From Eunapius fragilis (lineage: Eukaryota > Porifera > Demospongiae > Spongillida > Spongillidae), in contig OY811981.1 in NCBI GenBank assembly GCA_963681505.1, positions 4,917,383 through 4,981,382 of the forward strand: a DNA stretch of 64,000 nucleotides, written 5' to 3'. Shown in pieces: positions 1-38,597 of this stretch. The notes beneath the pieces were generated by a model, which worked only from the letters and a program-made list of their open reading frames with translations, searched no databases and had not been told where the DNA came from. Position 1 is the first letter of the stretch, and every line of letters starts with the position of its first letter. Position numbers and translations under genes: made by a program.

Positions 1-715
1 TAAATATAGGACTATGACATTTTCCCTTCTGATAAGACCTTGTTTCCTTGCTTTTTACACCACCAATGTCATAATCAAATCCTATATCCCACCAACTTTC
101 TCGTAGAGAATGTTTTTATTTACTTGTTTTCTTTATTTTTTTTCATACCCATTTAATTATACAAGACATTAGTCTCGTACCCAGACCGTCTATGACGTAA
201 GCGATTATCGCTGTAAACAGTATAATCACTACGTCCATACGTATGGACGTAGTGATTATACTGTTTACAGCGATAATCGCTTACGTCATAGACGGTCTGG
301 GTACGAGACTAACAAGACATAGGAGGCTGATAGTCGATTGTTTATCAAAGTATTATATTATATAAAAGCGAGTCCTCCAGCCGATTCTGAAGCTATTGGT
401 GAAATTTTCATCGCTTAGAAATGTTCCTGTCCTGAGTTATGCGTTGCCAAGAAGGAGGAGAAGAAGAAGACGACCCGCCCCTTGTTCCGAGACTGGGTAC
501 GAGGACGGGCAGTACACTCTTGTTCTCAACAACCACGCGGTTCAGCGACATGAAACAAAAACGAAACTACTCATTTTTGACTTCTAGATCGATTGCTAAA
601 ACAAGCTACACGATCCGATCGTCAGGAGTGTTGTTACAGACGGGTCGCGTTTTTTAATGACATTCATAGTCGGGGTCAAATCCTATATGGAAGTTTCTAA
701 CGAAACTTCCGATAT
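1..715 (+). repeat. Dispersed repeat of about 0.8 kb, copy 1 (interrupted by a MITE)
   Basis: This block is nearly identical to 35026-35810. The two copies share the segment from the left edge to about 150 and again from about 150 to 715, ending at the hairpin GGAAGTTTCTAACGAAACTTCC region. Copy 1 lacks about 200 bp present at 35181-35384 and carries an extra palindromic insertion at 170-311. It contains a TATAAAAG box near 361. I do not recognise the family; it may be a promoter-bearing end of a larger element whose body is missing here. Confidence 0.85.
170..311. mobile_element. 142-bp perfect palindromic MITE with 9-bp target duplication
   Basis: The element begins TAGTCTCGTACCC and ends GGGTACGAGACTA. 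Its two halves are exact reverse complements meeting at 240/241. It is flanked by ACAAGACAT at 161-169 and at 312-320. The paralogous repeat at about 35.4 kb has a single ACAAGACAT at that place and no insertion, so it gives the empty site. A 9-bp duplication is typical of Mutator-like elements and possible for Merlin; the superfamily is inferred. Related ends occur at 41786 and 42211. Confidence 0.93.
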
Positions 716-1950: not shown

Positions 1951-2049
1951 TCATCAGGGCAATACAATAAATAAGCTCCCTTGCCCGTTGCCAGTCATGT
2001 ACCACAAAGCGAGACAGCGTAACAAGAGCGTGCAGAAGAAGCGACGAGA

Positions 2050-3999
2050 ATGTCTAAATCGCGAGCTCCAGCAATCGGTATTGACCTCGGAACCACTTAC
2101 TCCTGCGTGGGTGTCTTCCAACACGGCAAGGTCGAAATAATCGCCAACGACCAGGGCAACCGTACCACCCCCAGCTACGTCGCCTTCACCGACACCGAAC
2201 GTCTCATCGGAGATGCCGCCAAGAACCAGGTGGCCATGAATCCCAACAATACGGTGTTTGACGCCAAGCGAATGATCGGAAGGCGCTTTGACGACCCCAC
2301 CATCCAAGCTGACATGAAGCACTGGCCCTTCACCGTCGTCAACGAAGGGGGCCGACCCAAGATCCAGGTGGAGTACAAGTGCGAGACGAAGAACTTCTTT
2401 CCCGAGGAGATCTCTTCCATGGTGCTGACCAAGATGAAGGAGACGGCGGAGGCCTATCTTGGCACTACGGTAACGGACGCCGTGATAACGGTACCCGCGT
2501 ACTTCAACGACTCGCAGCGACAGGCCACGAAGGACGCCGGAGTTATAGCGGGACTGAACGTTCTGCGGATCATCAACGAGCCCACAGCTGCTGCCATCGC
2601 ATACGGACTAGACAAGAAACTGAAGGCCGAACAGAACATCCTCATCTTTGACCTCGGAGGGGGAACCTTTGACGTCTCAGTCCTGACCATAGAGGAAGGC
2701 ATCTTTGAGGTGAAGTCAACGGCAGGTGATACCCACCTTGGAGGAGAGGACTTTGACAACAGGATGGTGAACCATTTCATCCAGGAGTTCAAGAAGAAGC
2801 ACAAGAAGGACATGTCTGCCAACAAGAAGGCCGTTAGACGTCTGCGTACAGCCTGTGAGAGAGCAAAGAGAACCCTCTCGTCCAGTGCCCAGGCCAGCAT
2901 TGAGATTGACTCACTTTTTGAGGGCATTGACTTCTATACCACCATCACCAGGGCCCGCTTTGAGGAGCTGAATGCTGACCTGTTCAGAGGCACACTGGAG
3001 CCAGTGGAGAAAGCCCTTCGTGATGCCAAGTTTGACAAGTCCCAGATCCACGAGGTGGTGCTGGTTGGAGGATCAACTCGTATCCCCAAGGTCCAGAAGC
3101 TACTCCAGGACTTCTTCAATGGCAAGGAGCTGAACAAGTCCATCAACCCTGACGAGGCAGTGGCCTATGGAGCAGCTGTCCAGGCAGCCATCTTGAGCGG
3201 AGACAAGAGCCAGGAAGTGCAGGATCTCCTCCTCCTGGACGTCATCCCCCTCTCACTCGGTCTGGAGACAGCCGGTGGTGTCATGACAACCCTTCTGAAG
3301 CGCAACTCCACCATTCCCAAGAAGGAGACACAAACATTCACCACCTACTCTGATAACCAGACTAGCGTGCTGATCCAAGTGTACGAAGGGGAGAGGGCCA
3401 TGACCAAAGACAACAACCTGTTGGGGAAATTTGAGCTGACCCACATCCCACCAGCCCCTCGTGGTGTGCCTCAAATAGAAGTAACCTTCGACATTGACAG
3501 GAACGGCATCCTGAACGTGAGTGCAGTGGAGAAGAGCACAGGGAAGGAGAACAAGATCACCATCACCAATGACAAGGGAAGGTTGAGCGCCGATGACATA
3601 GACCGCATGGTGAAGGAGGCAGAGAAGTACAAGTCCCAAGATGAGGAGCACAGGGCCAAGATAGCTGCCAAGAACCAGCTGGAGAGCTATGCATTCCAAT
3701 TGAAGAGCACCATGGAGGAGGATAGCGTGAAGAGCAAGTTGAGTGAGGAGGACAGAAAGAAGGTGTTGGATAAAGTGAGTGAGGTGAGCAGCTGGCTGGA
3801 TAGGAACCAGACGGCAGAGAAGGGAGAGTTTGAGGACAAGCAGAAGGAGCTGGAGAAGGTGTGCATGCCAATCATGACCAAGCTGTACCAGACAGGAGGG
3901 ATGCCCAATGGAGCAGGGGGTATGCAAGGAAGTCCTCATGGAGGTGATGGAGCTGGTGGCAAGAAGAGCCAAGGCCCTACCATTGAGGAGGTGGACTGA
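2050..3999 (+). CDS. Cytosolic heat shock protein 70, intronless
   Basis: A 649-aa ATP-dependent chaperone that binds exposed hydrophobic peptides in the cytosol and nucleus. The N-terminal ATPase domain opens with the phosphate-binding [13 protein letters not shown] motif near residue 10, has [12 protein letters not shown] near 197 and [12 protein letters not shown] near 336. The substrate-binding domain and helical lid follow, then a GG-rich tail and the C-terminal EEVD that docks TPR co-chaperones, which marks the cytosolic class. Length matches the family. It is uninterrupted, as usual for stress-inducible HSP70 genes, and the heat-shock elements just upstream agree. Coding GC is well above the flanks. 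The start is the first ATG, directly before the conserved N-terminus. Confidence 0.98.
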
Positions 4000-15731: not shown

Positions 15732-18253
15732 CCTTTAATCTCCAGGGCCAGGTCCTACGCGTAGGACCAAACTTTCAACATTTGTTCTAACTTAAAATAA
15801 AATAATCTAGCATCCATGTCTTCATTGTTGTATGATATCACATCATACTTAATTTATCAATTAAAAATTAATTTTTATGTGATTCAGGTGGCCTGAAATA
15901 TCTAAATAAATGAATGCCATCCTTCAAAATGCATTATGTTAAATATTTTATTGTTGCAGAAAAATGTATGACAACTATAGGTTTTTTAAAATGATTTATC
16001 TAGCTTGATGTGTGTGCTACTTTACAAAATCTTTGGCAGTTCCATATCCAATCAGTTTTGCTATTTTCTACTGACGATGCAGTACTTCTTACATGCATTT
16101 AGCTATATTTTCAAAACAAACCTACTGACCAGATAGCACATAGATTGAGATGATAATGTTAATTAACTACAGTCCAACTCTGCCTAAATGGCTTCTGAAG
16201 CAGTCTCGTGTGCCTGGTTCACAGCATCCATACAGGTCATTCTCTCCAATGTTTGAGCATCCTACACAATAATATGACGTCTTTGCTGAACATATCCTGC
16301 ACTTCCGTTGCTTTCGACCAGTTGCACCACTGTATGAAGGGGTGTGTTTTACAAAATCTAGTCGATGGCGTACATCGATCTGTATGCAGTAAAAAAATGA
16401 AAGCAAATTATACATGTACATTACCATGGGTATTATGAGAAAATTACCTCTTCACTGACATCATCATGCTCATTGGAAGTGCTGCGTAGTTCCATTGGTT
16501 GATCAAGGTACTGGTTATGGATCAGCTGATAGGCAAGCTTCCCAATAAACCCTTTAAAATCATCAGTTGCATCACCATTCTTTTCAGCCTCAAATTTGTA
16601 TGCCATGTAAGCATCAACTACGTACATTCCAAAGATGGTTGCAAACATGCGATGCCACCAACAATGAGTGTACCATTCTCGCTCAAACGCCAAGGACCCC
16701 TGGTGGTAGTGATCGTGGACATCTATAGCACCAAAGCAGCTGAAAATAAGCTCTATCATTGAAGGTCGAGAGATCTCTTTATAGTAGGTAACTGTTTCAT
16801 ACATTCCATCTTTTTCCACCTTCTTGTGTCGTTTACGTTTGCTGGGATTCCCAGGAAGGGTGGTACCTGCATTTGAAATAATGGTCTTCAACTTTCTGTC
16901 TTTCCAACCAAGTGCATACATATTTGTGTTCTGTGGTGTCTTCGACTCTAACAAACACCAATCTCCTCTTGATGGTACTCCCCCTTCCGCAAGACCATTC
17001 TCCCAATCTTTCATGAATCCCATGGGATACTCCTTATGTGCAGTTTTGACCATGCCTTGAAAGTACAGACCCCTTTGTTCAAGAGCCAAGAGTGTCTTAA
17101 CCGACGAAAAGGCTGAATCAGCATGTACAATTCTCCCACTTCCAAAAAGAGATGAACATAAACGCAGCACAACTGCCGTGCCTTCTCCAAATTCTGCTGA
17201 GAAAGATTTACGGCGATTTGCGTCTTTGCCTTCCATAATGTCTAGCTTCAGGAGAATTCCTGTTGAACCACATGCCATAGATTTCAATTCAGCACCCACC
17301 CCTTCTAGTTTTCTCACTATCTTGGTCTTGTGAGGCATACCTTTAGCAACATACTCTGCTTCAGAACCTGTCCAAGAACTCATGCACTCATCTACCACAA
17401 CATGTTGACCAGGAATCACAAATTTCTCCCGAGTGATGTTAAAATCTGTGATTAGCTGCCTGATTGAAATCCAAGGATCCTACAAAACAGTATAATGAAT
17501 GACGTACACAATTTACAATGTGATCGTTGTACTTACATCCTCAACTCTCACAGCTGGCTTAGGATCAGCAAAAGAAAGACACTGTGTTATGTTTTGGAAT
17601 CGATGCCTGGTCATACCAAAACGGCCCCCAAAATCTGCACCAGTATATATTGTACCACCAGGCTGTACTCCTTGTTCCCAATATATTGTGATTGGACCCC
17701 TTTTACGCTCACACACCATTGCTAGTCTCAAGCCAAGGTATTTCAAAAATTCACCTCTGGTAAGCTGGACATGACCATTACTGTGCAAATTGGCATTTGT
17801 GTATGCCAACATTTGATTCAGCCCTCTCATAGGGTAAAGTTGGTACAAGTAATCAGTTTCTTTTTTGACATCAACCATTGTCAGTGCTTCAGGCCACCGA
17901 AATCGGGCAGAGTGAACATTATCTTTCGCAGATGGATCAATTAATAAAGTATCTCGTACTGCCCAAACACGCCCATGAGGTAACAAAGACTGCTTGTGGC
18001 TGGTAGGATGGTCAATATCTGCAGAAGGACCAGGTACATCATCGCTGTGAAACATTAAAAAATATACATGTACGTGAACTTTGCATCATGTATACTTGCA
18101 TGCATCCACTTTTTTGCTCTGAAAAGTATCACTGAAGACAATAGAATTTTTATTCCATTCTACTTGCATACCGTTTGCCCAAAATATTAACTTTTACCTG
18201 CGTCCTACGCGTAGGACGATCGTCCTACGCGTAGGACGTCTGGAGATTAAAGG
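15732..18253 (-). mobile_element. Complete piggyBac-type DNA transposon
   Basis: A 2,522-bp element flanked on both sides by the target duplication TTAA (15728-15731 and 18254-18257). The terminal inverted repeats are CCTTTAATCTCCAG and its exact reverse complement. Inside the ends are copies of a 16-bp palindrome, GTCCTACGCGTAGGAC: one on the left (15752-15767) and two on the right (18202-18217, 18222-18237). It encodes one three-exon transposase. TTAA targeting and a CCT/CCC-type terminus are hallmarks of piggyBac. Confidence 0.97.
16167..18055 (-). CDS. piggyBac-type transposase (three exons, apparently intact)
   Basis: Exons on the minus strand: 17537-18055, 16448-17479, 16167-16379. Introns are 57 and 68 bp with GT-AG ends, phase 0 throughout, giving 587 aa. 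It should catalyse TTAA-specific cut-and-paste transposition in the nucleus. The catalytic domain (DDE_Tnp_1_7) shows VVVDECMSSWTG, HADSAFSSVKTLLALEQRGL and AIDVHDHYHQG, matching the blocks around the acidic residues. The last exon encodes a cysteine-rich zinc-binding tail (CRIC, YYCVGC, then CCEPGTRDCF) as in active piggyBac enzymes. No stop or frameshift was seen. An extra 5' exon is possible because a TTTCACAG acceptor-like sequence overlaps the chosen ATG. Confidence 0.93.
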
Positions 18254-23780: not shown

Positions 23781-24092
23781 TCAGCCACAGGAACATACTG
23801 AGGGTACTGACCAAGTGGCCCATCTAATCCCTGCACATGAATACTGAGAACATGACATGGCACAGATGAGGAAGAAATGGTGGAACCTCTAGCAGAACCA
23901 GATGAGCAAGCCCAAGATGTGGCCCCTGTGCACCTATTAACCCATCAAAGGTGGCCGACTGAAAGATTTAAAAGTTCATGCGTGGGTGTGTCCCTTTCAG
24001 AGGAGGAGCAGGCAATGTGACTGGGATCACCTAAAACTTGTATCTCTGGAATATTTATTTTGTCTTAGCATTTAAGGTGTATCTTTTGTATA

Positions 24093-24310
24093 CACTGTGG
24101 AAAAACACAGTTATACAGTACAGTATAACACGTGTATTCATTCGTTATACACATGTTATACACTAGAATACACATGTTATACGCACCGCGTATAACTCTG
24201 CGTATGGATACTATATACACAGCATTTCGTATAACGCTTATATACACGTACGGTATAACAGTGCGTATAACGAGATTAACATGTGTATAACAGCGTGTAT
24301 TTTTTAAGGG
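24093..24310. repeat. Left subterminal GTTATAC/GTATAAC motif cluster
   Basis: About ten GTTATAC or GTATAAC motifs in both orientations within 200 bp of the end. In plant CACTA elements such subterminal motifs bind the element-encoded accessory protein (TNPA); the same role here is inference. Confidence 0.85.
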
Positions 24311-24513
24311 GTGTGTACGTTAGTCACGTCACTAACCTCAAGTCCCAGTTTAGTATGCTGTAATCTTCCGAGCATTTCATACTAAATCTTGGAAATGCGC
24401 TCCGCTTTCGTGCAAAGCTCCCGCATTTTAATCCGAATATTATTCAGTTGCCAATGAAGGAATGGTACATACATGTACATGTACAGTCGATGTAACAAAA
24501 AAAAAAAAAAGTT

Positions 24514-25688
24514 CTATTGAGCAGCCAGCATCCACGGCAGAAGTCCGTCGGGAGGAGGGAGCCTCACGGGTGAACCCAGAGTGCGTTCTTTTCGCGCTGT
24601 TTTGGATGATCCATCGGCCCTCTTATAAATGTCATCCAGCGCAGAATTGAATTCCTCCGATCTCCAGCTTGGCCGCTTCCTCCTTATCTTTCCTTCTTCT
24701 TCTTCTTCTTCCGACATCAGCGTTGGGTTAAGGAGCACCCAGAACTCCTTTTCCGTTTCAAAAAGGTGTTTAGACCGACGTTCCCAAAGCTGCCATGGAG
24801 TAGCACGTGACTGTGGAAGTAATACGTTAACTTCTTTGCTTACGCGTTGTTGGCGAGAACGAATTCCTCGCCGCTTTGTTTCTTTGTTGGTACTCTCTCG
24901 TCTAAGTGTCCGTCTATACGTCGCTACTCCAACTACATATGGATCAAAATAGTGCTCACTGATGTTAAGTTACACAAACAAACCTCGAATGTCGCTGTTC
25001 TCAAAATCCGGCCCAATTTCAGCTACGATTTTGTCCACAACCGTGCAGTTGTGAGCGCTGGATATCCTAGAAATGTTCTGAAAAACAAAAATAACTAGCA
25101 CGTAACTCACGGCTCATCTGTTTTCAGGCGGCAGTCTTCACCAAAGGCCTCGTGAAGTTTTCTAATTTTCATCTTTTCAAAAGGAGGAACAAATATCGTG
25201 TGCATGCAAAAGTGTAATTGAATGCTTACCTGAAGAGATAGTGGCGTAATCCTTCTTCGTTTTGAAGACTTCTCACTGTTCGCGCCTGTAACTGCTCCCA
25301 CATGAGACTCGACAATGGCCTTTAAGGACTCCTCTAAGGCCGAAACGCGATCGCATGTGGACTGAAGGACCTGGTTGATCCTAGCAATTTCGCTACCGAG
25401 GAGGGCCTTGATCTCCTCAACAGCAGCTGAAACTATCCGCTGGTGTGATTGATGGTCATTCGGTAGAGCCTGACCTGGAAGCCACGACACATCATCTACA
25501 GGAATGCTGATTGATGGAGGTATGTGCATCCCCTGGCGAGGTCCATAAAAGCTGGTGGCGTTTGTCCCTGACGTCTGCTGCCTATATTCTGAGAAACCAG
25601 CTGCTTCGTGGTTCTGTTCACTACAAAGGTTCCTTGGAGTCAAAGGTGTGCGGGACTGACGACCGCGACCAGCAGGAGGAGTTGCCAT
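24514..25688 (-). CDS. CACTA accessory protein (four exons, 340 aa)
   Basis: Exons on the minus strand: 25230-25688, 25111-25172, 24984-25066, 24514-24932. All introns are GT-AG and phases match (0, 2, 1), giving a 1,023-bp frame from ATG (MATPPAGRGRQ) to stop. Residues 1-153 are polar with a predicted helix (EEIKALLGSEIARINQVL) and a basic SSKRRR cluster that looks like a nuclear signal. Exons 2-4 encode a compact segment (KIRKLHEAFGEDC, NCTVVDKIVAEIGPDF, VGVATYRRTLRRES) then a basic stretch and an E-run. The segment loosely resembles a BEN-type DNA-binding domain; I am not sure. Transcribed divergently from the transposase, it is the natural candidate for a TNPA-like subterminal-repeat binder. 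Confidence 0.75.
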
Positions 25689-25742
25689 TTCTGCAAGCTT
25701 TTGTGAGCCACGTGGATTTTTCGCGCGCAAAAATAATTAAAA
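25689..25742. promoter_or_regulatory. 54-bp bidirectional promoter of the CACTA genes
   Basis: Only 54 bp separate the two ATG codons of the divergent accessory and transposase genes, so both must share this core region or have leaders within each other's coding sequence. It includes CACGTGG and TTTTTCGCGCGC. No TATA box seen. Confidence 0.6.
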
Positions 25743-28601
25743 ATGAACGGCGAGGGAAATGAGTATGTGTGTATGGGATGCAATCAAAGTGTGTCAAAAG
25801 CAACTTACTATAGACACAAAATACCTGGTGTATGTTCCAGAAAAGTTACTCCATTGCGAAATGAGAATGCAACCTTCTCGGAAGGAGCTGAGTCCGAGCC
25901 AGAGTTAACACACAGTGCTAGCGCAGAGGAAGAGTCAGCTGAGAACATATTTGGCATAGAGTCGGGCGAGGTAGATTTGGAAATGGCAGGAGTAGAGGTT
26001 CTTCCGGGAGACGAAGAAGGTGCCGATGTTGCTCCAGATGACACAAGTGTTGCTGAAATTGACGTTGAATTAGAACTCACTACAACTCCTGAGGAAATGC
26101 GCCTGAATGCGTTTGTGAATACATTGGTGAGTTTCTTGACTTTTATTCAGCTGAAATTTGGTTTACCAGATAGAGGGTTGCAATCACTTCTTTATCTTGT
26201 TGCGTTTGTTATTGAAACAATTTATGCATTGATCCCATCAAACCACATATTAAGAAGCTTAAGGGATAAAATTCCAACGTCGCTTTATTCATTAAGAAAA
26301 CGTGCAATGCTACCAAATGCAGGCATAAGGCAGTATTGTGTCTGCCCAAAATGTGATACCTTGTACAGTGGTGGAAATCATACCATTCAAACCTGTACAT
26401 ACATTCAATTTCCCAATCATCCTCACAAAAGTCGCAAAGCTGCATGCAATGCATCACTTCTCAAAACAATAAAAAGCTCGTCATCTTACAAGCTTTTACC
26501 AAGAAAGTTGTACAGTTACAATTGCATCATAGAAAATGTTAAAAGGTTAATGTCACGACCTGGATTTATGCAACTCTGCAGGGCATGGAATGACAGAACC
26601 GTGTCAAGTGGAGTATTAACAGATATTTATGATGGTGGTTTGTGGAATGATTTTAGGAATTTTCAGGAAAGACCATTCTTGAATTTTCCTCATAACTTAG
26701 CATTTCTTTTGAATGTTGATTGGTTCCAGCCCTTTGATCATGTCCAATACAGTGTTGGTGTTCTATATCTTACTATTTTAAACTTGCCACGCTCTCAAAG
26801 GTACCTTTTAGAAAATGTTATTGTTGTTGGATGCATACCGGGCCCTAGCGAGCCCCACAACCTTAATCCTTACCTTGAACCATTGGTTGAAGATTTACTA
26901 ACCCTTTGGGATGGAGTAGTTTTCAAACCAGAGTCATATCCATTTCCAGTTGTAATTAGAGCCTGCCTTCTTGGAGTAGCCTGTGATCTTCCTGCAACCA
27001 GAAAAGTGTGTGGCTTCACTGGTCATACATCAACCCAAGGATGCTCCAAGTGCATGAAAACATTTAAATGTAATAGTTTTGGTGAAAAGCTTGACTATTC
27101 AGGATTTAATAGAGAAACTTGGATACCAAGAACTCAAGTTATGCATAATGAAGCAGTGAATGCTCTAGGTAAAGCAACTTGTTTATCTCAACAGGAGCGC
27201 ATTGAAAAGATGTATGCTGTCAGGATCTCAGCTCTTGTAAAACTACCATACTTCAACATAATTCGACAACATGTTGTTGATGCTATGCATAATTTATATC
27301 TGGGTACAGCCAAACATATGATTACCATTTGGAAGGAAATGGGATTGTTAACATCAAATGAATTAGACATAATTCAAAACAGGGTTGACGAAATGGATGT
27401 GCCACATGGCATTGGAAGGATACCAAATAAAATATCATCAAAGTTTAGCAGCCTAACAGCAGATCAGTGGCGAAATTGGACAAATATATATTCCTTGTAC
27501 GCACTGCATAATATTTTACCATCTGAACATTACTCATGCTGGAGTATCTTTGTCGAGGCATCGATTATTCTATCTCAATACTCTATATCTAAGGAAGACT
27601 TGAAGAAAGCTGATGAAAAATTGATTCTTTTTTGCCAAACATTTGAAACATTATATGGGTCTCAATCATGCACACCTAATATGCATTTACATTGCCACAT
27701 AAAGGAATGTGTTTTAGATTTTGGTCCAATTTCGTCATTCTGGGTATTTCCATTTGAACGTTTTAATGGAATAATGCAGTCATTTCTTAATAATTGGGTT
27801 TCTCCTGAGCTTCAAATGATGAAAAAGTTCATTTCATATCAGAATGTGATTTCTTTTCCCACATCAACCTCTGCCAAACTTGATTATATTCAGTTTGATG
27901 AAGGAAGCAGTCTGTTTGGAGAAGGATCTTTGGTGCAAACAGCAACAGATGGCTATGAGCGTCAGATATATGCGCAAAACTATATCTGTCCTCTCAATTC
28001 AATTAATGCTGTACAATTAAAATTTCATACAATTGGTCCTAGAATATTTGAAAACTATTTTTCTGATGATGAAGTAAAGAACATCACAAATGTGTACAGC
28101 TGGCTTTATCCTCAGTTCATTTCACACCCCCTATTTGTTTGCCGAACACATTTACAATTTTATGACTTGCATGCCCATGGAGAACATTTGATTTCCATCA
28201 GAGCTAGATCAATGCGTTCATGCACAATCATGGCAATATTTCCAAAGCTAGGTGGGACAATAGATCCTGAACAGAAAGTTCTTAGATTTGGAGAAGTTCA
28301 GTTCTTCATTCAACATTCCATTCAGTTACCAAACACAGCTATCACTACTGTTCATAGTCAAACAAAACACCTATTTGCTAAAGTCAAATGGTTCTGTCAA
28401 CATCCTGGAGAAAATACAGTCTCTTGGCCTCTGAAGATTGTTGCAACAGATTTTGAGCCAGACGGTCCATCAACATTTATTCCAGTCAGCAGAATAATAT
28501 GTAGATGTGCAATTGCTAAGAAACAACCAATAGCATTTGATTGTGGTCATGATGTTGTTAATATTGTGTGTCCTTTGTTTACTACAGTTGTTCAATTGTA
28601 A
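25743..28601 (+). CDS. TNP2-type CACTA (EnSpm) transposase, intact and intronless
   Basis: A 952-aa uninterrupted frame from ATG. Order: a small N-terminal zinc site (C10, C13, H25, C31); an acidic linker; a second cysteine cluster (C199, C201, C204, C218); then the RNase H-fold transposase domain. Candidate catalytic residues are D326 (LLNVDWFQPF), D513 (HVVDAMHNLYLG) and E672 (FPFERFNG). Between them is the zinc-bearing insert typical of TNP2 (C414, C423, H428, C434, C437) and the family block VVGCIPGPSEPHNLNPYLEP. The C-terminal third is conserved-looking but unnamed. It should cut at the CACTA ends and leave 3-bp duplications, which fits the element. No disabling change was seen. Confidence 0.92.
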   Translation: MNGEGNEYVCMGCNQSVSKATYYRHKIPGVCSRKVTPLRNENATFSEGAESEPELTHSASAEEESAENIFGIESGEVDLEMAGVEVLPGDEEGADVAPDDTSVAEIDVELELTTTPEEMRLNAFVNTLVSFLTFIQLKFGLPDRGLQSLLYLVAFVIETIYALIPSNHILRSLRDKIPTSLYSLRKRAMLPNAGIRQYCVCPKCDTLYSGGNHTIQTCTYIQFPNHPHKSRKAACNASLLKTIKSSSSYKLLPRKLYSYNCIIENVKRLMSRPGFMQLCRAWNDRTVSSGVLTDIYDGGLWNDFRNFQERPFLNFPHNLAFLLNVDWFQPFDHVQYSVGVLYLTILNLPRSQRYLLENVIVVGCIPGPSEPHNLNPYLEPLVEDLLTLWDGVVFKPESYPFPVVIRACLLGVACDLPATRKVCGFTGHTSTQGCSKCMKTFKCNSFGEKLDYSGFNRETWIPRTQVMHNEAVNALGKATCLSQQERIEKMYAVRISALVKLPYFNIIRQHVVDAMHNLYLGTAKHMITIWKEMGLLTSNELDIIQNRVDEMDVPHGIGRIPNKISSKFSSLTADQWRNWTNIYSLYALHNILPSEHYSCWSIFVEASIILSQYSISKEDLKKADEKLILFCQTFETLYGSQSCTPNMHLHCHIKECVLDFGPISSFWVFPFERFNGIMQSFLNNWVSPELQMMKKFISYQNVISFPTSTSAKLDYIQFDEGSSLFGEGSLVQTATDGYERQIYAQNYICPLNSINAVQLKFHTIGPRIFENYFSDDEVKNITNVYSWLYPQFISHPLFVCRTHLQFYDLHAHGEHLISIRARSMRSCTIMAIFPKLGGTIDPEQKVLRFGEVQFFIQHSIQLPNTAITTVHSQTKHLFAKVKWFCQHPGENTVSWPLKIVATDFEPDGPSTFIPVSRIICRCAIAKKQPIAFDCGHDVVNIVCPLFTTVVQL

Positions 28602-28922
28602 TTTCAGTTATGTTGAAATGAAATGAAGTTTTTGGTTAAAGGTATAATTCATTGCAGTCTGCATGGTTGTTAAGGTACTTTTACCAGATTATTCCATTAA
28701 GTGAACAACACTTCATTAATATGAAACAAAAACTGAAGCAAATTATATAATTGATATTGAACAATAACAAGACAAAACACAAACAGATATGAAAAGTTAG
28801 CATTGATAAAAACGTCACTAATACAACTTTATGTTCAGCATTTAGTCCACTGTAGGACATGAAATTTGAAATATGCGTCAAAATGAACAAAGAGATTACA
28901 GAGCTCAATAAAGCAGTTCGCA
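28602..28922. other. AT-rich spacer after the transposase gene
   Basis: Probable 3' flank of the transposase. No motif recognised. Confidence 0.5.
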
Positions 28923-29463
28923 TCCTACCACAGTCACTGGGTAAAGATCTGTCACGTTGGAAAGCTTAACAAACAAGCAATCCGTGTGAAAGAGTACGAC
29001 CAAGTTATGTCATTCCCACGTAAAATAGACAAAATAGATGCCATATGCTCACCTGATGTAGCCACGCCTACCCCTGTCACATGACCTCTTGCACTGTCAC
29101 CGGCGAGAAGGTCTGTCACATTGGAAAGCTTAACCAACCAGCAATCTGTCGATAAGAGGAAGACAAGTAATGTCATACCCACATACAATACACTAAATGG
29201 AAGCCACATACTCACCTGATGTAGCCACGCCTACCCCAGTCACATGACCTCTTGCACTGTCACTGAGATGAAGGTCTATCACATTGGAAAGCTTAACCAA
29301 TCACCAATCAGCCCGTAAGAATAAGACGAGTAATGTCATACCCACGTACAATAGACAAAATGGATGCCACATGTTCAACTGATGTAGCCACGCCTACCCC
29401 AGTCGCAAGACCTCTTGCACTGTCACTGGGGAGAAGGTCTGCTGCATTGGAAAGCTTAACCAA
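28923..29463 (+). repeat. 163-bp satellite, left part
   Basis: Units are marked by TTGGAAAGCTTAACCAA at 28957, 29120, 29284 and 29447, spaced 163-164 bp. Each unit also contains ATGTAGCCACGCCTACCCC and CTCTTGCACTGTCAC. The array is interrupted at 29463 by a nested transposon and continues at 36428. Confidence 0.97.
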
Positions 29464-29479
29464 CACTGTGCAAATGATT

Positions 29480-29585
29480 TGTTATACGATAGCGTATTCT
29501 ATAGCGTATATTCGAATATACCCCTTAAATATACGCACCTGCGTATAGAACCATATACACGGGTGCGTATATTGAAATATAACCG
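29480..29585. repeat. Subterminal TATAC/GTATA cluster of the nested element (left)
   Basis: GCGTAT, TATACGC and GTATAT motifs recur about every 10-15 bp. The mirror cluster lies at 36320-36415. Confidence 0.8.
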
Positions 29586-31128
29586 ATCACGTGACATTCA
29601 TGGTCGCTTAGCAAGCCTTTGAATTCACTTTGTGGCTATCTTGTCGGTCACCGTATACTAAGCGCTTCATATTCCGTGTATTTGTCCTACTCCCACCCCT
29701 CGTTCCCGATCCAATTTAGAATCCAATTGAAATTTTAATAATTTGCACAAGTACAACAGAACAACAAACTAACAGTCCGAGGTGGCATTCAGCATAACTT
29801 CGTTCCAAGTCGCCTGTACAGAACAACTGTAAATTCTTATCGTCAAAATTATTTAACTCACCGCATATGGATCCTTGCGAACTGTCGTGTTGATACAACA
29901 GACACATTGAAATGAAAACGAAATTGGCAACGCTTACCATTTAGTCACGTTTCATCTAGCAAATTGTGAACGTTGGGAAAGGTCAAGGAGGTTAAACGCT
30001 TACCGGACCTGTCAGCAACAAATCACGATGAAACTGTCTGATAATACCCGACTTGTCAAAGTGTCCGGATTCGCCCAACACGTAGCCAGTTACACGAACA
30101 ACTTTAGACAAATGGACGAGTATAGCAGCACTTCGCAAAACATGAAATGACATACCTTTTTCTACCGTGCTCCGTTGTGCCGGTTTCGGTTGCTCAACAG
30201 GAACACTTGGGACATGCCAAACTGGTGCAAATAGTCAGAGGTGATTAGCAACACTATTTCTCGTCAACTTAGTCTTACCATTCAAACCATACGCTGATCT
30301 CAAGAGTCCATTTTCAGAGTCTTCGCATTAAAAGCAATCAACACGCGGCAATGGAATAGCCCGCCTAAAATTTACAAGTCACGTGCGGTAAGCAAATCAC
30401 ATTCCTAATTGGAGCAGCCCTATACACCATCGCTCATGTCAGAAAGAGCACCAAAGATCATCACCAACACAATGAATCATGTCTGTTACCATGCAAGGAA
30501 GCGATGGCACCTAGATGAGATTTCTGGAGAACCCGAAATCATATTTACTAGCCTAAGGATCTGACATTGTGGAAACTAATTACTTCTAAAGTTTATTTGT
30601 ATAAATGCAATATCCGCTGTATACATAATTTAGTATACAGCTAACATGCGATCATGTACCAGTACAATACATATATACTCACGCTCGCAAGTGGCTGTGG
30701 TAAAAAAATTTGATAGGGGATAGCTTCGAGTAACCAGTACGTATACATACATGGACAGTGGCGTAGGAAGGGAATAAAAAGTGCAGCGGCCAAAGTTAAA
30801 TGGCGGAGTCCCCCGGGGAGGGTGAGGGAGGGGGGTGCCCCTCCCGCCCAGCCAGGGGGTATGGGGGAGCGCTGTAAGCTCCCCCATGCCCCAGAAGCCA
30901 ACGCTTTTTGCGTAGAAAAACACCCCCCAAAACGCAAAAACTGCACTTGTTTTTATGTGAAAACGTTATTCCGAAAAAAAATCCGTGTCCAATGAACAAT
31001 AGCAAGCATGCATGGAACAGAGCAATGTACGGGCAATTAACACGCTAAATGTCTGTTGGCAAAAAGCTTCCAAAAAAGGCTTCACGATGGCTACAACCTT
31101 TTGAAAATTCATTGCCGATTTCAATATA
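29586..31128. other. Non-coding interior of the nested element, left part
   Basis: No recognised gene. At 30757-30960 there is a GC-rich degenerate repeat starting CAGTGGCGTAGGAAG with GGGGGGTGCCCCTCCCGCCC. A related GTGCAGCGGC / CCTACGCCACTG end occurs inverted at 35930-35965. Confidence 0.5.
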
Positions 31129-34100
31129 CAGTAGGGACTCGAAGATACGGAAAAATCGCACCTCAAAGATACGGAAAATAAGGCACATTCATTGCTCATT
31201 AAATAAACAGTCCGTGGTCTTAACAAACCAACCACGTTGCCCTCTAATGCGATTCACCGCTGAAGGCGCCCTTACCTGAAATGTAATTCACTTGAGCGCG
31301 CCGCTTCGTTGTGCCTGGCAAAGTAAACAATCTGTTGTCGACTATTTCCATATTGTCCTCATGCCAGCCATAGGTTCCGCGCGTTTGCAGACCTCCCTAG
31401 CGCATATACCTGCCCCGCGCAATGCCCACTGCGTGCATGCATGCATGCATGCGGATGTAATATGCATTATGAGTTCTCCTTTCACACTCACCAATTCAAG
31501 TCTGTTGGTAAGACAATATTATTCAAAGAACTTCAAACAGGGGCCTACCTGTGACATTATTCATGCAGACTTGTTCGTGTCCATGTTGGTGCAATGATGT
31601 CTATGTTCACAGTTTATTTTAAAACTAAACAAAAATTGGCTAACCTGATTACAATCCCAGTTCATTGAGTGCCGGTACAATTTTATAATCTGATGTCTAT
31701 GCATGCATGTGTGACTGTATCAAAGAACATTTCTAAACTTTCAATTGCATCATTATAACTTTAAATTGTTTACCTTTACATGCATGCAAAGTGTGTGTCC
31801 CATTACAAATGCATTACTTATGACAACCTAGCCACATGTCCACACAGAACAATCACAGATCAATTGCTTTCTGGTCTCTGGCACCATGAGGTGAGATGGA
31901 CATTGCAGACAAATGTCTGTGATGTATGTATGATCAGGTCTGGCCAGTTGACACTTTTTATAGCATTTAGGAATTTACCAGTACCCCAGCTACACTATGT
32001 AGACATACATTTCATACATTGGTCCTTCTGTGTACCTCACCAGAATTAACATACCCATTGTACATAGTCTATCATTTATGTTAATGCAGACTTGTCTTTT
32101 TTCAACCATCCAGAATGTTGGCAACTGAAAATAATAAGCATTTTGCCATGTGCACAAAATTTAGATTTATAGGGAGTATCTTACCATGTCAAGGACAGGT
32201 TCCTCCACAAAAAATGCACGCGAAGAGTGAAACCAGAACCTTTCAGAATAAATTAATTGTTCCATGTCCATAACTTTAGCATAATAACTATGCATTCGAG
32301 TTCAACACTTTCCACATGGCGGTGCATACCTGCCACAAAATTTATGTAATATTTTTTAGAAGGCATTACAACAGATACAATGTACAAGAGGCATATAGGG
32401 ACAGGTAGCAACTTCAAGTGTATATATTTGCTCTATGTAAATGACTATGGACATGCATGAACCGTGTAGCACACGGCAATGGCAGTACTAGTACTAGTCT
32501 GCGATTGCAATAAAACTGACCCATCTGTTTAGCTTGCTAATGATTTTCCACGCACTTGCTAATGTACTCAGGTACATGTGGATTATATGTCGTGGGAGTT
32601 CTCAGTCCTCAAACAACTATATCATACCTGACCACCCGAAGGTATGTATGTATCGTGGAATTGAGGTACTGCTATTGAAAACTTATAGGGATGCGTTTTT
32701 ATTTACTTTTTAGCGCTAGTACAAAAGTATGTACCCTGTTTTATCATAGCTAAGAATACAACTAAAGTACGTGCAGAACTTACCACAAAACAGGTCACGC
32801 TTTGCGCATCAATTGGAGTTTCGATTGTTTGGAATACAATTTATAGCACGGGTGGCGAGGCAGAAAACTGAGTTTAGAACTTTACGAGAAGTTAGAAGTT
32901 ATTAAGGAAGTGAAGGCAGGTAAACCAATAGATGATATATCGGTGCTTGTGTACAGTTTGGAATAAGTAAGAGTCAGGCTTACCAACTCTATAAAGATAA
33001 GGATGCCTTGCAAGTATCAGCACGAAGTGACAGTGTGCCTGTCCACTCAAAGTTCAGAAAGAACAAAGCCAGGACACTAGAAATCAATCCCGCTGTGTTT
33101 GACTGGTTTTGTTCTGTGCGATCGTTTAGAGGTGCTGGTAAATCCTACCTCTTGCGATGGCTTCATTTGGAAGATGAGGTTATGATTCCAACCAGCGAGG
33201 AGGAATCATAACTACACGGTTCATGCATGTCCATGCATAGTCATTTACATAGAGCAAATATATACACTTGAAGTTGCTACCTGTCCCTATATGCCTCTTG
33301 TACATTGTATCTGTTGTAATGCCTTCTAAAAAATATTACATAAATTTTGTGGCAGGTACGCATATGCATTGCCATGTGGAAAGTGTTGAACTCGATGCAT
33401 AGTTATTATGCTAAAGTTATGGACATGGAACAATTAATTTATTCTGAAAGGTTCTGGTTTCACTCTTCGCATGCATTTTTTGTGGAGGAACCTGTCCTTG
33501 ACATGGTAAGATACTCCCTATAAATCTAAATTTTGTGCACATGGCAAAATGCTTATTATTTTCAGTTGCCAACATTCTGGATGGTTGAAAAAAGACAAGT
33601 CTGCATTAACATAAATGATAGACTATGTACAATGGGTATGTTAATTCTGGTGAGGTACACAGAAGGACCAATGTATGAAATGTATGTCTACATAGTGTAG
33701 CTGGGGTACTGGTAAATTCCTAAATGCTATAAAAAGTGTCAACTGGCCAGACCTGATCATACATACATCACAGACATTTGTCTGCAATGTCCATCTCACC
33801 TCATGGTGCCAGAGACCAGAAAGCAATTGATCTGTGATTGTTCTGTGTGGACATGTGGCTAGGTTGTCATAAGTAATGCATTTGTAATGGGACACACACT
33901 TTGCATGCATGTAAAGGTAAACAATTTAAAGTTATAATGATGCAATTGAAAGTTTAGAAATGTTCTTTGATACAGTCACACATGCATGCATAGACATCAG
34001 ATTATAAAATTGTACCGGCACTCAATGAACTGGGATTGTAATCAGGTTAGCCAATTTTTGTTTAGTTTTAAAATAAACTGTGAACATAGACATCATTGCA

Positions 34101-34561
34101 CCAACATGGACACGAACAAGTCTGCATGAATAATGTCACAGGTAGGCCCCTGTTTGAAGTTCTTTGAATAATATTGTCTTACCAACAGACTTGAATTGGT
34201 GAGTGTGAAAGGAGAACTCATAATGCATATTACATCCGCATGCATGCATGCATGCACGCAGTGGGCATTGCGCGGGGCAGGTATATGCGCTAGGGAGGTC
34301 TGCAAACGCGCGGAACCTATGGCTGGCATGAGGACAATATGGAAATAGTCGACAACAGATTGTTTACTTTGCCAGGCACAACGAAGCGGCGCGCTCAAGT
34401 GAATTACATTTCAGGTAAGGGCGCCTTCAGCGGTGAATCGCATTAGAGGGCAACGTGGTTGGTTTGTTAAGACCACGGACTGTTTATTTAAAGAGCAATG
34501 AATGTGCCTTATTTTTCGTATCTTTGAGGTGCGATTTTTCCGTATCTTCGAGTCCCTACTG
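31129..34561. mobile_element. 3.43-kb Tigger/pogo element with 1.34-kb inverted repeats
   Basis: It starts CAGTAGGGACTCG and ends CGAGTCCCTACTG, flanked by TA on both sides (31127-31128, 34562-34563), the Tc1/mariner target. Left arm 31129-32469 and right arm 33212-34561 are near-identical reverse complements, differing mainly by small indels and single bases. The 742-bp centre holds a decayed transposase N-terminus. Identical frames seen on opposite strands in the arms are mirror images, not two genes. Confidence 0.93.
32860..33211 (+). pseudogene. CENP-B-type helix-turn-helix remnant of a Tigger transposase
   Basis: Translations read LYEKLEVIKEVKAGKP, then in another frame GISKSQAYQLYKDKDALQ and NPAVFDWFCSVRS. 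This is the order of the Tigger DNA-binding domains (psq helix-turn-helix, then CENP-B helix-turn-helix). One frameshift lies near 32960, and the frame stops at 33211 where the right arm begins. The DDE domain is absent. Confidence 0.8.
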
Positions 34562-34871
34562 TAATAATAACGCTAAATCCATATTAAGTAGGTGACCAGT
34601 TTAGTTTGTTGTGAGATCTTGCCTGCGCGCATGTAATACAACAAAAAAAGCATCGCTACTTTCCAGATAGTACAGCCAAGGCCACTTGTCGAACCTTGAT
34701 GGTTGAAAACTACGTTGCGCGGGTACCTTATTACCGAAGCTTCTTTTCGGAAAAGGATACAATCTTGGTTGGTGCGCTTGTTCAGGAAAGCTAGCTGAAG
34801 TCGCCATAATGACACTTGCAACAGCCTGTAATTCACTAGCAGCAGCTGCTCAGCTGATTTGAATTACATCA

Positions 34872-35822
34872 ACAAGTAAATAAAAACATTCTCTACGAGA
34901 AAGTTGGTGGGATATAGGATTTGATTATGACATGGGTGGTGTAAAAAGCAAGGAAACAAGGTCTTATCAGAAGGGAAAATGTCATAGTCCTATATTTAGC
35001 ACACAAACAACACATGCCCTAGAAATGTGCTAAATATAGGACTATGACATTTTCCGTTCTGATAAGACCTTGTTTCCTTGCTTTTTACACCACCAATGTC
35101 ATAATCAAATCCTATATCCCACCAACTTTCTCGTAGAGAATGTTTTTATTTACTTGTTTTCTTAATTTTTTTTCATACCCAAGTAACCCAATTCTAAAAC
35201 ATCGTCTAGAACTTGAAGGTATTTCTCACGTCGTTTCGCTCGTTTCTTTTCTTGACGTGAAGGCATTTTGATAAAAACAACTTCACTAACAAAAAAGTAG
35301 CACAACAAACGACGATCGAATCACCAAAGAGTTTTTCTCTACTTGTTTTGCTATTTATACACATGCCGTTTATCTTTAGATACCGTAATTAAATTATACA
35401 AGACATAGGAGGCTGATAGTCGATTGTTTATCAAAGTATTATATTATATAAAAGCGAGTCCTCCAGCCGATTCTGAAGCTATTGGTGAAATTTTCATCGC
35501 TTAGAAATGTTCCTGTCCTGAGTTATGCGTTGCCAAGAAGAAGGAGGAGAAGAAGAAGACGACCCGCCCCTTGTTCCGAGACTGGGTACGAGGACGGGCA
35601 GTACACTCTTGTTCTCAACAACCACGCGGTTCAGCGACATGAAACAAAAACGAAACTACTCATTTTTGACTTCTAGATCGATTGCTAAAACAAGCTACAC
35701 GATCCGATCGTCGGGGGTGTTGTTACAGACGGGTCGCGTTTTTTTAATGACATTCATAGTCGGGGTCAAATCCTATATGGAAGTTTCTAACGAAACTTCC
35801 GATACATACTCGTATAAAGAAT
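34872..35822. repeat. 0.8-kb dispersed repeat, copy 2, preceded by a mirrored fragment of itself
   Basis: 35026-35810 matches 1-715 (about 98% by eye, without the 170-311 insertion and with 200 bp more). 34872-35003 is an inverted copy of its first 130 bp, so the unit is head-to-head around a 22-bp spacer. The whole block is flanked by a direct repeat of about 40 bp that starts TAATTCACTAGCAGCAGCTG (34831 and 35823). Confidence 0.85.
35162..35266 (-). CDS. Small conserved ORF in the 0.8-kb repeat
   Basis: A 34-aa basic frame (MPSRQEKKRAKRREKYLQVL, then an acidic/leucine stretch). It may be the first exon of a gene whose remainder is absent. It is missing from copy 1 because of the 200-bp deletion. 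Whether it is expressed is unknown. Confidence 0.25.
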   Translation of the reverse strand: MPSRQEKKRAKRREKYLQVLDDVLELGYLGMKKN

Positions 35823-36319
35823 AATTCACTAGCAGCAGCTGCTCAGCTGATTGAATTACATCAATACTGCCCGTATCATGTAAATTATAAGTTAACCCAT
35901 ATATTTTAATTTATTTTTCTCATATGAAAAAGTGCAGCGGCGCTGCAGCTCCTACGCCACTGCATGGAGTGCTCCATTCGTTGACTTTTGTTCGCTAAAA
36001 GGATGCTAAAATGACCATGTTAGCATCTGTAAACAAGTATGATTATAGGACAAGGTATGGTTTTAACCGGACCACTTATTCCTCGAGGGAAGAAAAAAAA
36101 GTTGTGACCCCCTGACGTATGCATTAACCGGCCCTCCCATACCGGCCATAGTTATAACCGGAGCACTTACTATAGTGTGGCTACACTAGCCTGTAAGATG
36201 AGAAAAGCATTTTAGCTGTGGCCAATGAATTTGCTAGTGTAATAAGCACACAACGGGTTATTGCTTGGTCATAACATTTTAATGGCTGCCTATGTAAACT
36301 GTGACGCAAGTGCGGTTGT

Positions 36320-36415
36320 GTATTCGTGAAATATACAACGTCGTATATTTCAAATGTACTGATCCGGCGTATATTTCAAGTATAGTCCAAAGTATACAGT
36401 ATCGTATAACAAACT
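36320..36415. repeat. Subterminal TATAC/GTATA cluster of the nested element (right)
   Basis: Mirror of 29480-29585, with motifs such as CGTATATTTCAA and GTATACAGTATCGTATAAC ending at the CACAGTG terminus. Confidence 0.8.
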
Positions 36416-36427
36416 ATTTGCACAGTG

Positions 36428-37875
36428 CAACCAGCAATCCGTCCGTGAAAGGAAGACAAGTAATGTCATACCCACATACAATACACAAAATGGAAGCCAC
36501 ATACTCACCTGATGTAGCCACGCCTACCCCAGTCACATGACCTTTTGCACTGTCACTGAGATGAAGGTCTATCACATTGGAAAGCTTAACCAACCAGCAA
36601 TCCGTCCGTGAAAGGAAGACAAGTAATGTCATACCCACATACAATACACAAAATGGAAGCCACATACTCACCTGATGTAGCCACGCCTACCCCAGTCACA
36701 TGACCTCTTGCACTGTCACTGAGGTGAAGGTCTATCACATTGGAAAGCTTAACCAATCACCAATCAGTCCGTAAGAATAAGACGAGTAATGTCATACCCA
36801 CGTACAATAGACAAAATGGATGCCACATGTTCAACTGATGTAGCCACGCCTACCCCAGTCACATGACCTCTTGCACTGTCACCGGGGTGAAGGTATGTTG
36901 CATTGGAAAGCTTAACCAACCAGCAATCCATCCGTAAAAGGAAGACAAGTAATGTCATACCCACATACAATAGACAAAATGGAAGCCACATACTCACCTG
37001 ATGTAGCCACGCCTACTCCAGTCACAAGACCTCTTGCACTGTCACCGGGGAGAAGGTCTGCTGCATTGGAAAGCTTAACCAACCAGCAATCCGTCCGTGA
37101 AAGGAAGACAAGTAATGTCATACCCACATACAGTACACAAAATGGAAACCACATGCTCACCTGATGTAGCCACGCCTACCCCAGTCACATGACCTCTTGC
37201 ACTGTCACTGAGGTGAAGGTCTATCACATTGGAAAGCTTAACCAATCACCAATCAGTCCGTAAGAATAAGAAGAGTAATGTCATACCCACGTACAATAGA
37301 CAAAATGGATGCCACATGTTCAACTGATGTAGCCATGCCTACCCCAGTCACATGACCTCTTGCACTGTCACCGGGGTGAAGGTATGTTGCATTGGAAAGC
37401 TTAACCAACCAGCAATCCATCCGTAAAAGGAAGACAAGTAATGTCATACCCACATACAATAGACAAAATGGATGCCACATGCTCAACTGATGTAGCCACA
37501 CCTATCCCAGTCACATGACCTCTTGCACTGTCACTGGGGTGAAGGTCTGTCACATTGGAAAGCTTAACCAATCACCAATTTCATACCCATGCACAATAGA
37601 CAAAATGGATGCCACATGCTCAACTGATGTAGCCACACCTATCCCAGTCACATGACCTCTTGCATTGTCACTGGGGTGAAGGTCTGTCACATTGGAAAGC
37701 TTAACCAATCACCAATTTCATACCCATGCACAATAGACAAAATGGATGCCACATACTCAACTGATGCAGCCACGCCTACCCTGTCACAAGACCTCTTGCA
37801 CTGTCACTGGGGTGAAGGTCTGTCACGTTGGAAAGCTTAACCAATTACCAATCTGTCCAAAAGAGTAAGACAAGT
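36428..37875 (+). repeat. 163-bp satellite, right part
   Basis: Continuation of the array: unit marks at 36579, 36742, 36905, 37068, 37231, 37394 and 37557 are exactly 163 bp apart, followed by two shortened units of about 137 bp. Apparent peptide repeats on both strands derive from the array. Confidence 0.97.
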
Positions 37876-38139
37876 AATGTGATGGCAATAAAGTACAGTG
37901 ACAAAGATTCCAATAAACAGAAGCATTGGGTATGATGCGACACACGTAGAAATTCACGTTTGTTCGCCGGACTGTAAAACTACTACAATTGTGAGACTTA
38001 ACATATCCTAATCCGACTACTGTAACTTTACCTTTCGAATTGAACGCACTTACCATTCATGCGATAAGTTAGCTCTTTGAAAACCAATAATTAAAGCATC
38101 ATTAACAGCAGTTATTATGTATTTCGATGTCAGTCAGTT
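37876..38139. other. Spacer between satellite and right end of the CACTA element
   Basis: Non-repetitive, no gene recognised. Confidence 0.5.
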
Positions 38140-38316
38140 ATACACAAGTGTGTATATCTCGAGGTGTTCACACATGGCGGCTGATAGGAATGAATACGTT
38201 TTATCAGTTATACGCCTGTTATACGTATGGTGTATATCCGAAGTATACCCAAATGCGTATAACCCTATGTATATTGAATATATACACATCGAGTATAACT
38301 GCCTTTTTCCATAGTG
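38140..38316. repeat. Right subterminal GTTATAC/GTATAAC cluster of the CACTA element
   Basis: Motifs in both orientations (CAGTTATACAC, CTGTTATACG, GCGTATAAC, GAGTATAAC) lead to the terminus CCATAGTG. Confidence 0.85.
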
Positions 38317-38597
38317 ATATATCGCAGTTCTCTCATTGCTATTTCCCAGAACCAGGGGGGCTACAGAACTTTTTTACTGCCCCCTCCTAAGGTATTTTTC
38401 TTCATGTATGAATATGTGTATTCATGTAATGTTTCATATCAACCAATGATTGTACAACATAATAAGTATGAACAATGCAAATTGCAGATGAATTAAATTT
38501 TTTACATCAATTAATCCTCAGGTTAGTAGATGAATAAAATGAAATCAGTATACTTACACCAATTTGTCAAAAAGACTGCCATGCAACAACAAAACCA

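Follow-up and report, generated by a model that had tools for sequence, protein, structure and literature searches.

Plant CACTA elements generate 3-bp target-site duplications and carry arrays of subterminal repeats, and the transposases of CACTA/EnSpm elements share a signature of DDE residues together with CxxC and D(2)H motifs. Maize En/Spm, in common with other plant CACTA elements, has CACT(A/G) ends, a Transposase_21 transposase and two proteins. PIF/Harbinger elements combine a transposase with a Myb-like protein and are represented in vertebrates by HARBI1 and NAIF1. In animals, SmTRC1 of Schistosoma mansoni and other TRC elements are described as members of the CACTA superfamily with a Transposase_21 transposase, a tandem-repeat region and a second protein (PMC1636069). 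The locus described here lies in a stretch of 64,000 nucleotides from the sponge Eunapius fragilis (GCA_963681505.1, contig OY811981.1, positions 4,917,383 to 4,981,382), termed the window, and displays the ends, the 3-bp duplication, the subterminal arrays and the transposase of the plant elements. It probably represents a CACTA (EnSpm) transposon of the cut-and-paste type that moved recently and whose two-protein system is divergently transcribed from a very short common promoter.

The outer element, termed family 1, spans positions 24093–38316 of the window on the plus strand, a nested insertion included; when this insertion and one CAA are subtracted, the length is ∼7257 bp. The termini are CACTGTGGAAAAA at 24093 and, on the reverse strand, CACTATGGAAAAA at 38316, and the trinucleotide ATA is read in the sequence on each side (24090–24092 and 38317–38319). 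The element thus has terminal inverted repeats starting with CACTA or CACTG, as is characteristic of the CACTA/EnSpm superfamily, and the identification of family 1 as CACTA is solid. Counted on both strands, the motif GTTATAC/GTATAAC is found 10 times in the left subterminal zone (24093–24322, the first 230 bp) and five times in the right one (38127–38316, the last 190 bp), with no occurrence in the 4.5 kb from 24400 to 28900; shuffled ends yield means of 0.06 (left) and 0.04 (right). The matching CACT(G/A) ends and ATA duplication proposed in the initial annotation are therefore read directly at 24093 and 38316, and its motif-rich subterminal zones correspond to 15 motifs in 420 bp of ends and none in 4.5 kb of interior.

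The transposase gene (25743–28598, plus strand) is a single open frame of 952 amino acids with an N-terminal Cys/His motif. The protein matches PF02992 (Transposase_21, TNP2) with an E-value of 4.4e-15 and 55.9 bits, where the cut-off is 28.6, which agrees with the intact TNP2-type transposase that had been predicted. In an alignment of 12 hand-chosen homologue sequences, D326, D415, the CxxC at 434–437 (C434, C437), D513/H516 and E672 are invariant. Homologues number 709 at E ≤ 0.001 among 7992 candidates scored, and those with a species name include proteins of Branchiostoma and Glandiceps. Five full frames of 954 amino acids are listed by a search of the genome (219 Mb in 24 contigs, to which the window belongs), one of them in L022, a duplicated locus described below.

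A partner gene is found on the minus strand, and its start codon is 54 bp from that of the transposase. The gap between the divergent start codons (25689–25742) is defined by these coordinates and presumably contains the shared promoter. By predicted splicing, five exons give a protein of 322 amino acids, with GT-AG introns of 57, 44, 51 and 54 nt. Exon 1 (25230–25688) encodes the N-terminal region, a coiled coil and a KRRR basic cluster; exons 2 (25111–25172) and 3 (24984–25066) follow, then exon 4 (24844–24932; TYRRTLRR...SRQQR) and exon 5 (24514–24789; LWERRSK...MSEEE...RPSWRS...WM), the last with 91 genome matches at E ≤ 0.01. All five were delimited by comparison with relatives. The same blocks are found in the same order upstream of related transposases that are 39–51% identical to that of the window, and the partner proteins at three of these loci (L049, L050 and L051) show 34–41% identity to the window partner. 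Splice points were picked by hand from GT-AG signals (one GC-AG, in L050), reading frame and similarity, so that exact agreement of junctions is partly built in; a further locus, L052, was compared by eye only. The spliced divergent gene of the initial annotation is supported most strongly by these shared exon blocks.

Head-to-head arrangement of the two genes recurs in the genome. Of 71 exon-5 matches outside family 1, 19 have a transposase match no more than 10 kb away, and all 19 are head-to-head; with random placement, 1.09 would be expected at such a distance, whatever the orientation. No scored transposase is near the remaining 52, and 150 of 305 transposase candidates were scored for these neighbourhood counts. 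With exon 1, 11 of 19 matches outside family 1 are head-to-head within 10 kb and eight are not near a transposase. Two lone partner loci, L055 and L056, belong to the L051 family as further copies; between L056 and L051, identity is 95.6% up to the CACTGTGCC end of L051 (position 2398). The partner is thus a repetitive, transposon-borne gene, many copies of which either have lost the transposase or adjoin one that was not scored. The recurrence of a divergent partner beside CACTA transposases can be considered well supported by these sequence comparisons. One group of exon-5 matches, present on many contigs, covers just residues ∼20–89 and has an internal TAG (in some cases also TGA); it looks like a repeat with a partner fragment and without a transposase.

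The partner has as its best Pfam match DUF4616 (PF15394), which we take to be the vertebrate C14orf93/RTFC/P19 family; no plant TNPA model is found among its Pfam matches up to E = 1. The window protein itself scores 19.8 bits (E 4.7e-4), below the curated cut-off of 27 bits. Of nine other partner-like proteins scored, three exceed the cut-off: L050 (35.8 bits, 6.5e-9), L051 (32.3 bits, 7.3e-8) and the Ephydatia protein P0122 (38.6 bits, 9e-10). Matches of L049, P0121, P0123 and P0125 fall below it, and P0126 and P0127 show none at E ≤ 1; among the relatives scored from this genome, two of three are above. Precomputed domains of the protein database place PF15394 on P0121, P0122 and P0131. Ephydatia accounts for eight of 10 protein matches to the partner; the NCBI name identifies two of them, and the other six have an Em gene prefix, which presumably denotes E. 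muelleri. Two protein searches with the partner (10 and 6 matches), in which a match requires exact shared 5-residue words, gave only Ephydatia or unnamed proteins and no named vertebrate member. When the genome was searched with DUF4616, seven matches were detected, all above the cut-off; each faces a transposase head-to-head at a distance of 4.6 kb or less, and their near-equal scores suggest few families of origin. No stand-alone DUF4616 match above the cut-off was detected in the genome by this exon-by-exon search, which could miss one.

These features suggest how the system may work. The TNP2-type DDE transposase would cut the DNA, and the DUF4616-like partner, with its coiled coil, basic cluster and small helical domain, would bind the two terminal GTTATAC arrays, bring the ends of the element together and recruit the transposase, much like TNPA as described for maize Spm. 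A second CACTA family later entered the window copy and landed in its satellite. The ends, duplications, copies, open frames, subterminal arrays and recurring divergent layout with its exon blocks are observed directly, whereas we infer that the genes are expressed and spliced, that the proteins bind DNA and interact, and that the system is active at present; judged from the sequence, the partner is likely a helper in transposition.

Eight other full copies of family 1, selected by the presence of both exact 13-mer ends 6.6–8.9 kb apart and read end to end, were located, with lengths of 6595–8901 bp. A comparison of the ends of other copies with 24093 and 38316, proposed earlier as a check, is thereby made, and it does not refute the boundaries. 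The 31-bp left end is found 16 times in the genome at ≤3 mismatches (14 exact; control 0). The 13-mer CACTRTGGAAAAA occurs 38 + 35 times, compared with 7 + 7 for a reversed control, and of 12 more loci taken at single 13-mer ends (L017–L028) only L022, L023 and L026 have family-1 sequence; with nine of 12 lacking it, the 13-mer is not sufficient by itself to define the family. Two loci, L001 and L002, have CACTATGGAAAAA right ends but other subterminal sequence; they represent a sibling family, for which no left end was located. A 3-bp duplication is present in all nine full copies, the window included (ATA, TAC, ACA, TCA, ACC, CAA, ATG, CAG and GTT), and the differing triplets indicate nine separate insertions. 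Along its first 5.37 kb, the window copy is 99.3–99.8% identical to all eight others. Over 4.84 kb without the satellite and with gaps ignored, the nine copies differ pairwise by just 0.12–0.46%, which argues for a recent burst; private substitutions number 3–12 and gap columns 0–26 per copy, in a star-like pattern. The recent burst of family 1 is a solid conclusion, and the element, as near-identical separate insertions suggest, was apparently mobile until recently. L022 and L010 are segmental duplicates (99.99% over 7437 bp, flank included), and L022 was accordingly left out of the nine. The duplicated stretch of 7.4 kb, which comprises flanking sequence and the greater part of a CACTA copy, lies on contigs C1 and C2 and represents either a recent interchromosomal duplication or an assembly duplicate. 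Another pair of family-1 ends, at C6:3928985 and C6:3953552, is separated by 24.6 kb in which pieces of partner and transposase occur; this is perhaps a copy with a large insertion and is not among the nine copies read.

Three other explanations of the locus can be weighed against these data. The initial annotation had viewed 24093–38316 as one complete, apparently autonomous element of 14.2 kb, which would make the middle 7 kb its own cargo, and the outermost termini of the 14.2 kb do indeed match. However, the segment 29464–36427 is a CACTA element in itself, of 6964 bp, which starts with CACTGTGCAAATGATTTGTTATAC, finishes with the reverse complement of CACTGTGCAAATAGTTTGTTATAC and has CAA on each flank; given this separate duplication, the 14.2 kb do not form a single element. 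The segment is absent from all eight other full copies, and its removal together with one CAA recreates an otherwise continuous satellite site that is present exactly in all eight. Moreover, L023, another family-1 copy, has a 4038-bp member of the inserted family (family 2) at another position, flanked by a TAT duplication. A single element is thus hardly credible and was rejected, the nested insertion being demonstrated. A second explanation is that family 1 is dead and that its copies owe their young appearance entirely to segmental duplication or an assembly artefact. L010 and L022 do form one duplicated segment, and the transposase frame, free of stops in four of the nine full copies, is broken in five; on the other side, nine copies with nine different duplications represent separate insertions, and each has substitutions of its own in a star-like pattern. 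This explanation is very unlikely.

The third explanation concerns the partner, which might be a host gene that was captured by one transposon lineage and is carried along without contributing to transposition. DUF4616 is a vertebrate single-copy gene family, and a function of the partner in transposition is something we infer; capture would also have precedent, as CACTA elements can carry host gene fragments (PMC1947982). Against capture, the same divergent position and exon blocks recur where the transposases have diverged to 39–51% identity with that of the window, and all seven DUF4616 matches above the cut-off adjoin a transposase, with the reservation given above that a stand-alone gene might be missed. 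Capture is therefore improbable, less so than the two explanations above, and a two-protein transposon remains the preferred reading.

The 163-bp satellite that received the nested element lies between the transposase and the right end. Repeat analysis places its left piece at 28944–29463 and its right piece, with units of 163/137 bp, at 36428–37852; there are 13 units in the window copy and 9–23 per full copy. As the rest of the element is near-identical, the array length changes faster than the remaining sequence, and the nine copies offer a good setting in which to follow satellite length change inside a mobile element. A 28-mer of the unit has 163 genome matches, and the 100 listed lie in or beside family-1 copies, as judged by position and by eye. 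A general genomic satellite was rejected on this basis, and the satellite appears to be the element's own, as had been claimed. Tandem repeats are also found on the partner-gene side of a related element (L049, 2200–3201), either inside it or beyond its end.

Family 2 is probably a large family of non-autonomous CACTA elements; the nested element (29464–36427) is one of its larger members and has further insertions of its own. Its end pattern, CACTGTGCAAATNNTTTGTTATAC, is found 100 + 129 times in the genome (n = 229) compared with 0 + 1 for the reversed control, and the 100 places listed include many pairs with a spacing of ∼1.75 kb. In the end pairs checked, 3-bp duplications agree in seven of eight (L041/L042 disagree), in addition to the CAA of the nested copy and the TAT of L023. 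Within the nested element is a long inverted-repeat element (31127–34563) with ends TACAGTAGGGACTC and GAGTCCCTACTGTA, which suggest a possibly TA-duplicating element; its 1169-bp arms are 100% complementary and are separated by 1099 bp. A hairpin with 142-bp arms (34862–35167) and a 407-bp stretch (35398–35804) are 98–99% identical to window positions 1–151 and 312–714, and these sequences recur, more weakly, at some other loci. Elsewhere in the window, by eye, an uninterrupted frame of 658 amino acids at 2023–3999 reads like HSP70, and frames at 16433–18085 read like a piggyBac-type transposase.

The DUF4616 match bears on a vertebrate gene as well. C14orf93 (RTFC; mouse P19) has been linked to thyroid cancer, and to our knowledge its molecular function has not been established. 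A basic cluster, a helical region and a C-terminal block are found in the same order in the transposon partners as in the DUF4616 family. By hand count from match ranges, the KRKRR cluster of L051 falls at about position 288–292 of the 524-position profile and the TYKRTLKR segment of L050 at about 364–371. Published accounts place a basic RRKR at residue 298 of the human protein (PMC3161784) and predicted bipartite nuclear signals from 291 and 369 in the 541-amino-acid mouse protein (PMC10163356), motifs that would fit the transposon-protein clusters in position; the mouse protein differs from the window partner in length (541 compared with 322 amino acids). Two papers state that no functional domain is known (PMC5322522, PMC3161784), and one cites a mainly nuclear plus membrane location for RTFC (PMC5322522). 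Weighing against descent from a nuclear helper, mouse P19 has been reported as a secreted attractant of microglia with a signal peptide (PMC10163356). It is hypothesized, tentatively and at somewhat less than even chances, that animal CACTA transposons have an ancient divergent accessory gene (DUF4616) and that vertebrate C14orf93 is a domesticated copy, the CACTA counterpart of NAIF1 of Harbinger. If so, the protein would originally have bound short DNA repeats near transposon ends in the nucleus, a concrete and directly testable hypothesis for this orphan human gene.

Compared with described systems, the sponge element differs in several ways. The two proteins of maize Spm come from one transcription unit by alternative splicing, as outlined in PMC1636069, whereas here two separate divergent genes are found. 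SmTRC1 has ends that start with CCC and a 2-bp duplication (PMC1636069), and family 1, with CACT(G/A) ends and 3 bp, does not belong to the SmTRC type so defined. The second protein of SmTRC1 is produced via alternative splicing and had no relatives detected in other animal or fungal elements (PMC1636069), while the divergent partner described here is found in several families. The initial annotation had regarded complete two-gene CACTA elements as rarely described in early-branching animals. This is only partly right, as publications on animal members of the CACTA superfamily go back to SmTRC1 in 2006 (PMC1636069); on the other hand, no description of a divergent DUF4616-like CACTA partner was found among the matches listed in open-licence PMC papers. 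For a group of animal CACTA elements, a second gene in a constant divergent arrangement is thereby added. A parallel in logic is PIF/Harbinger, which, according to PMC9710019, likewise has two genes, a DNA-binding helper for a subterminal motif and a helper turned host gene. It differs in that its transposase belongs to another superfamily, its helper domain is distinct as far as compared, and domestication, established there, is here a proposal.
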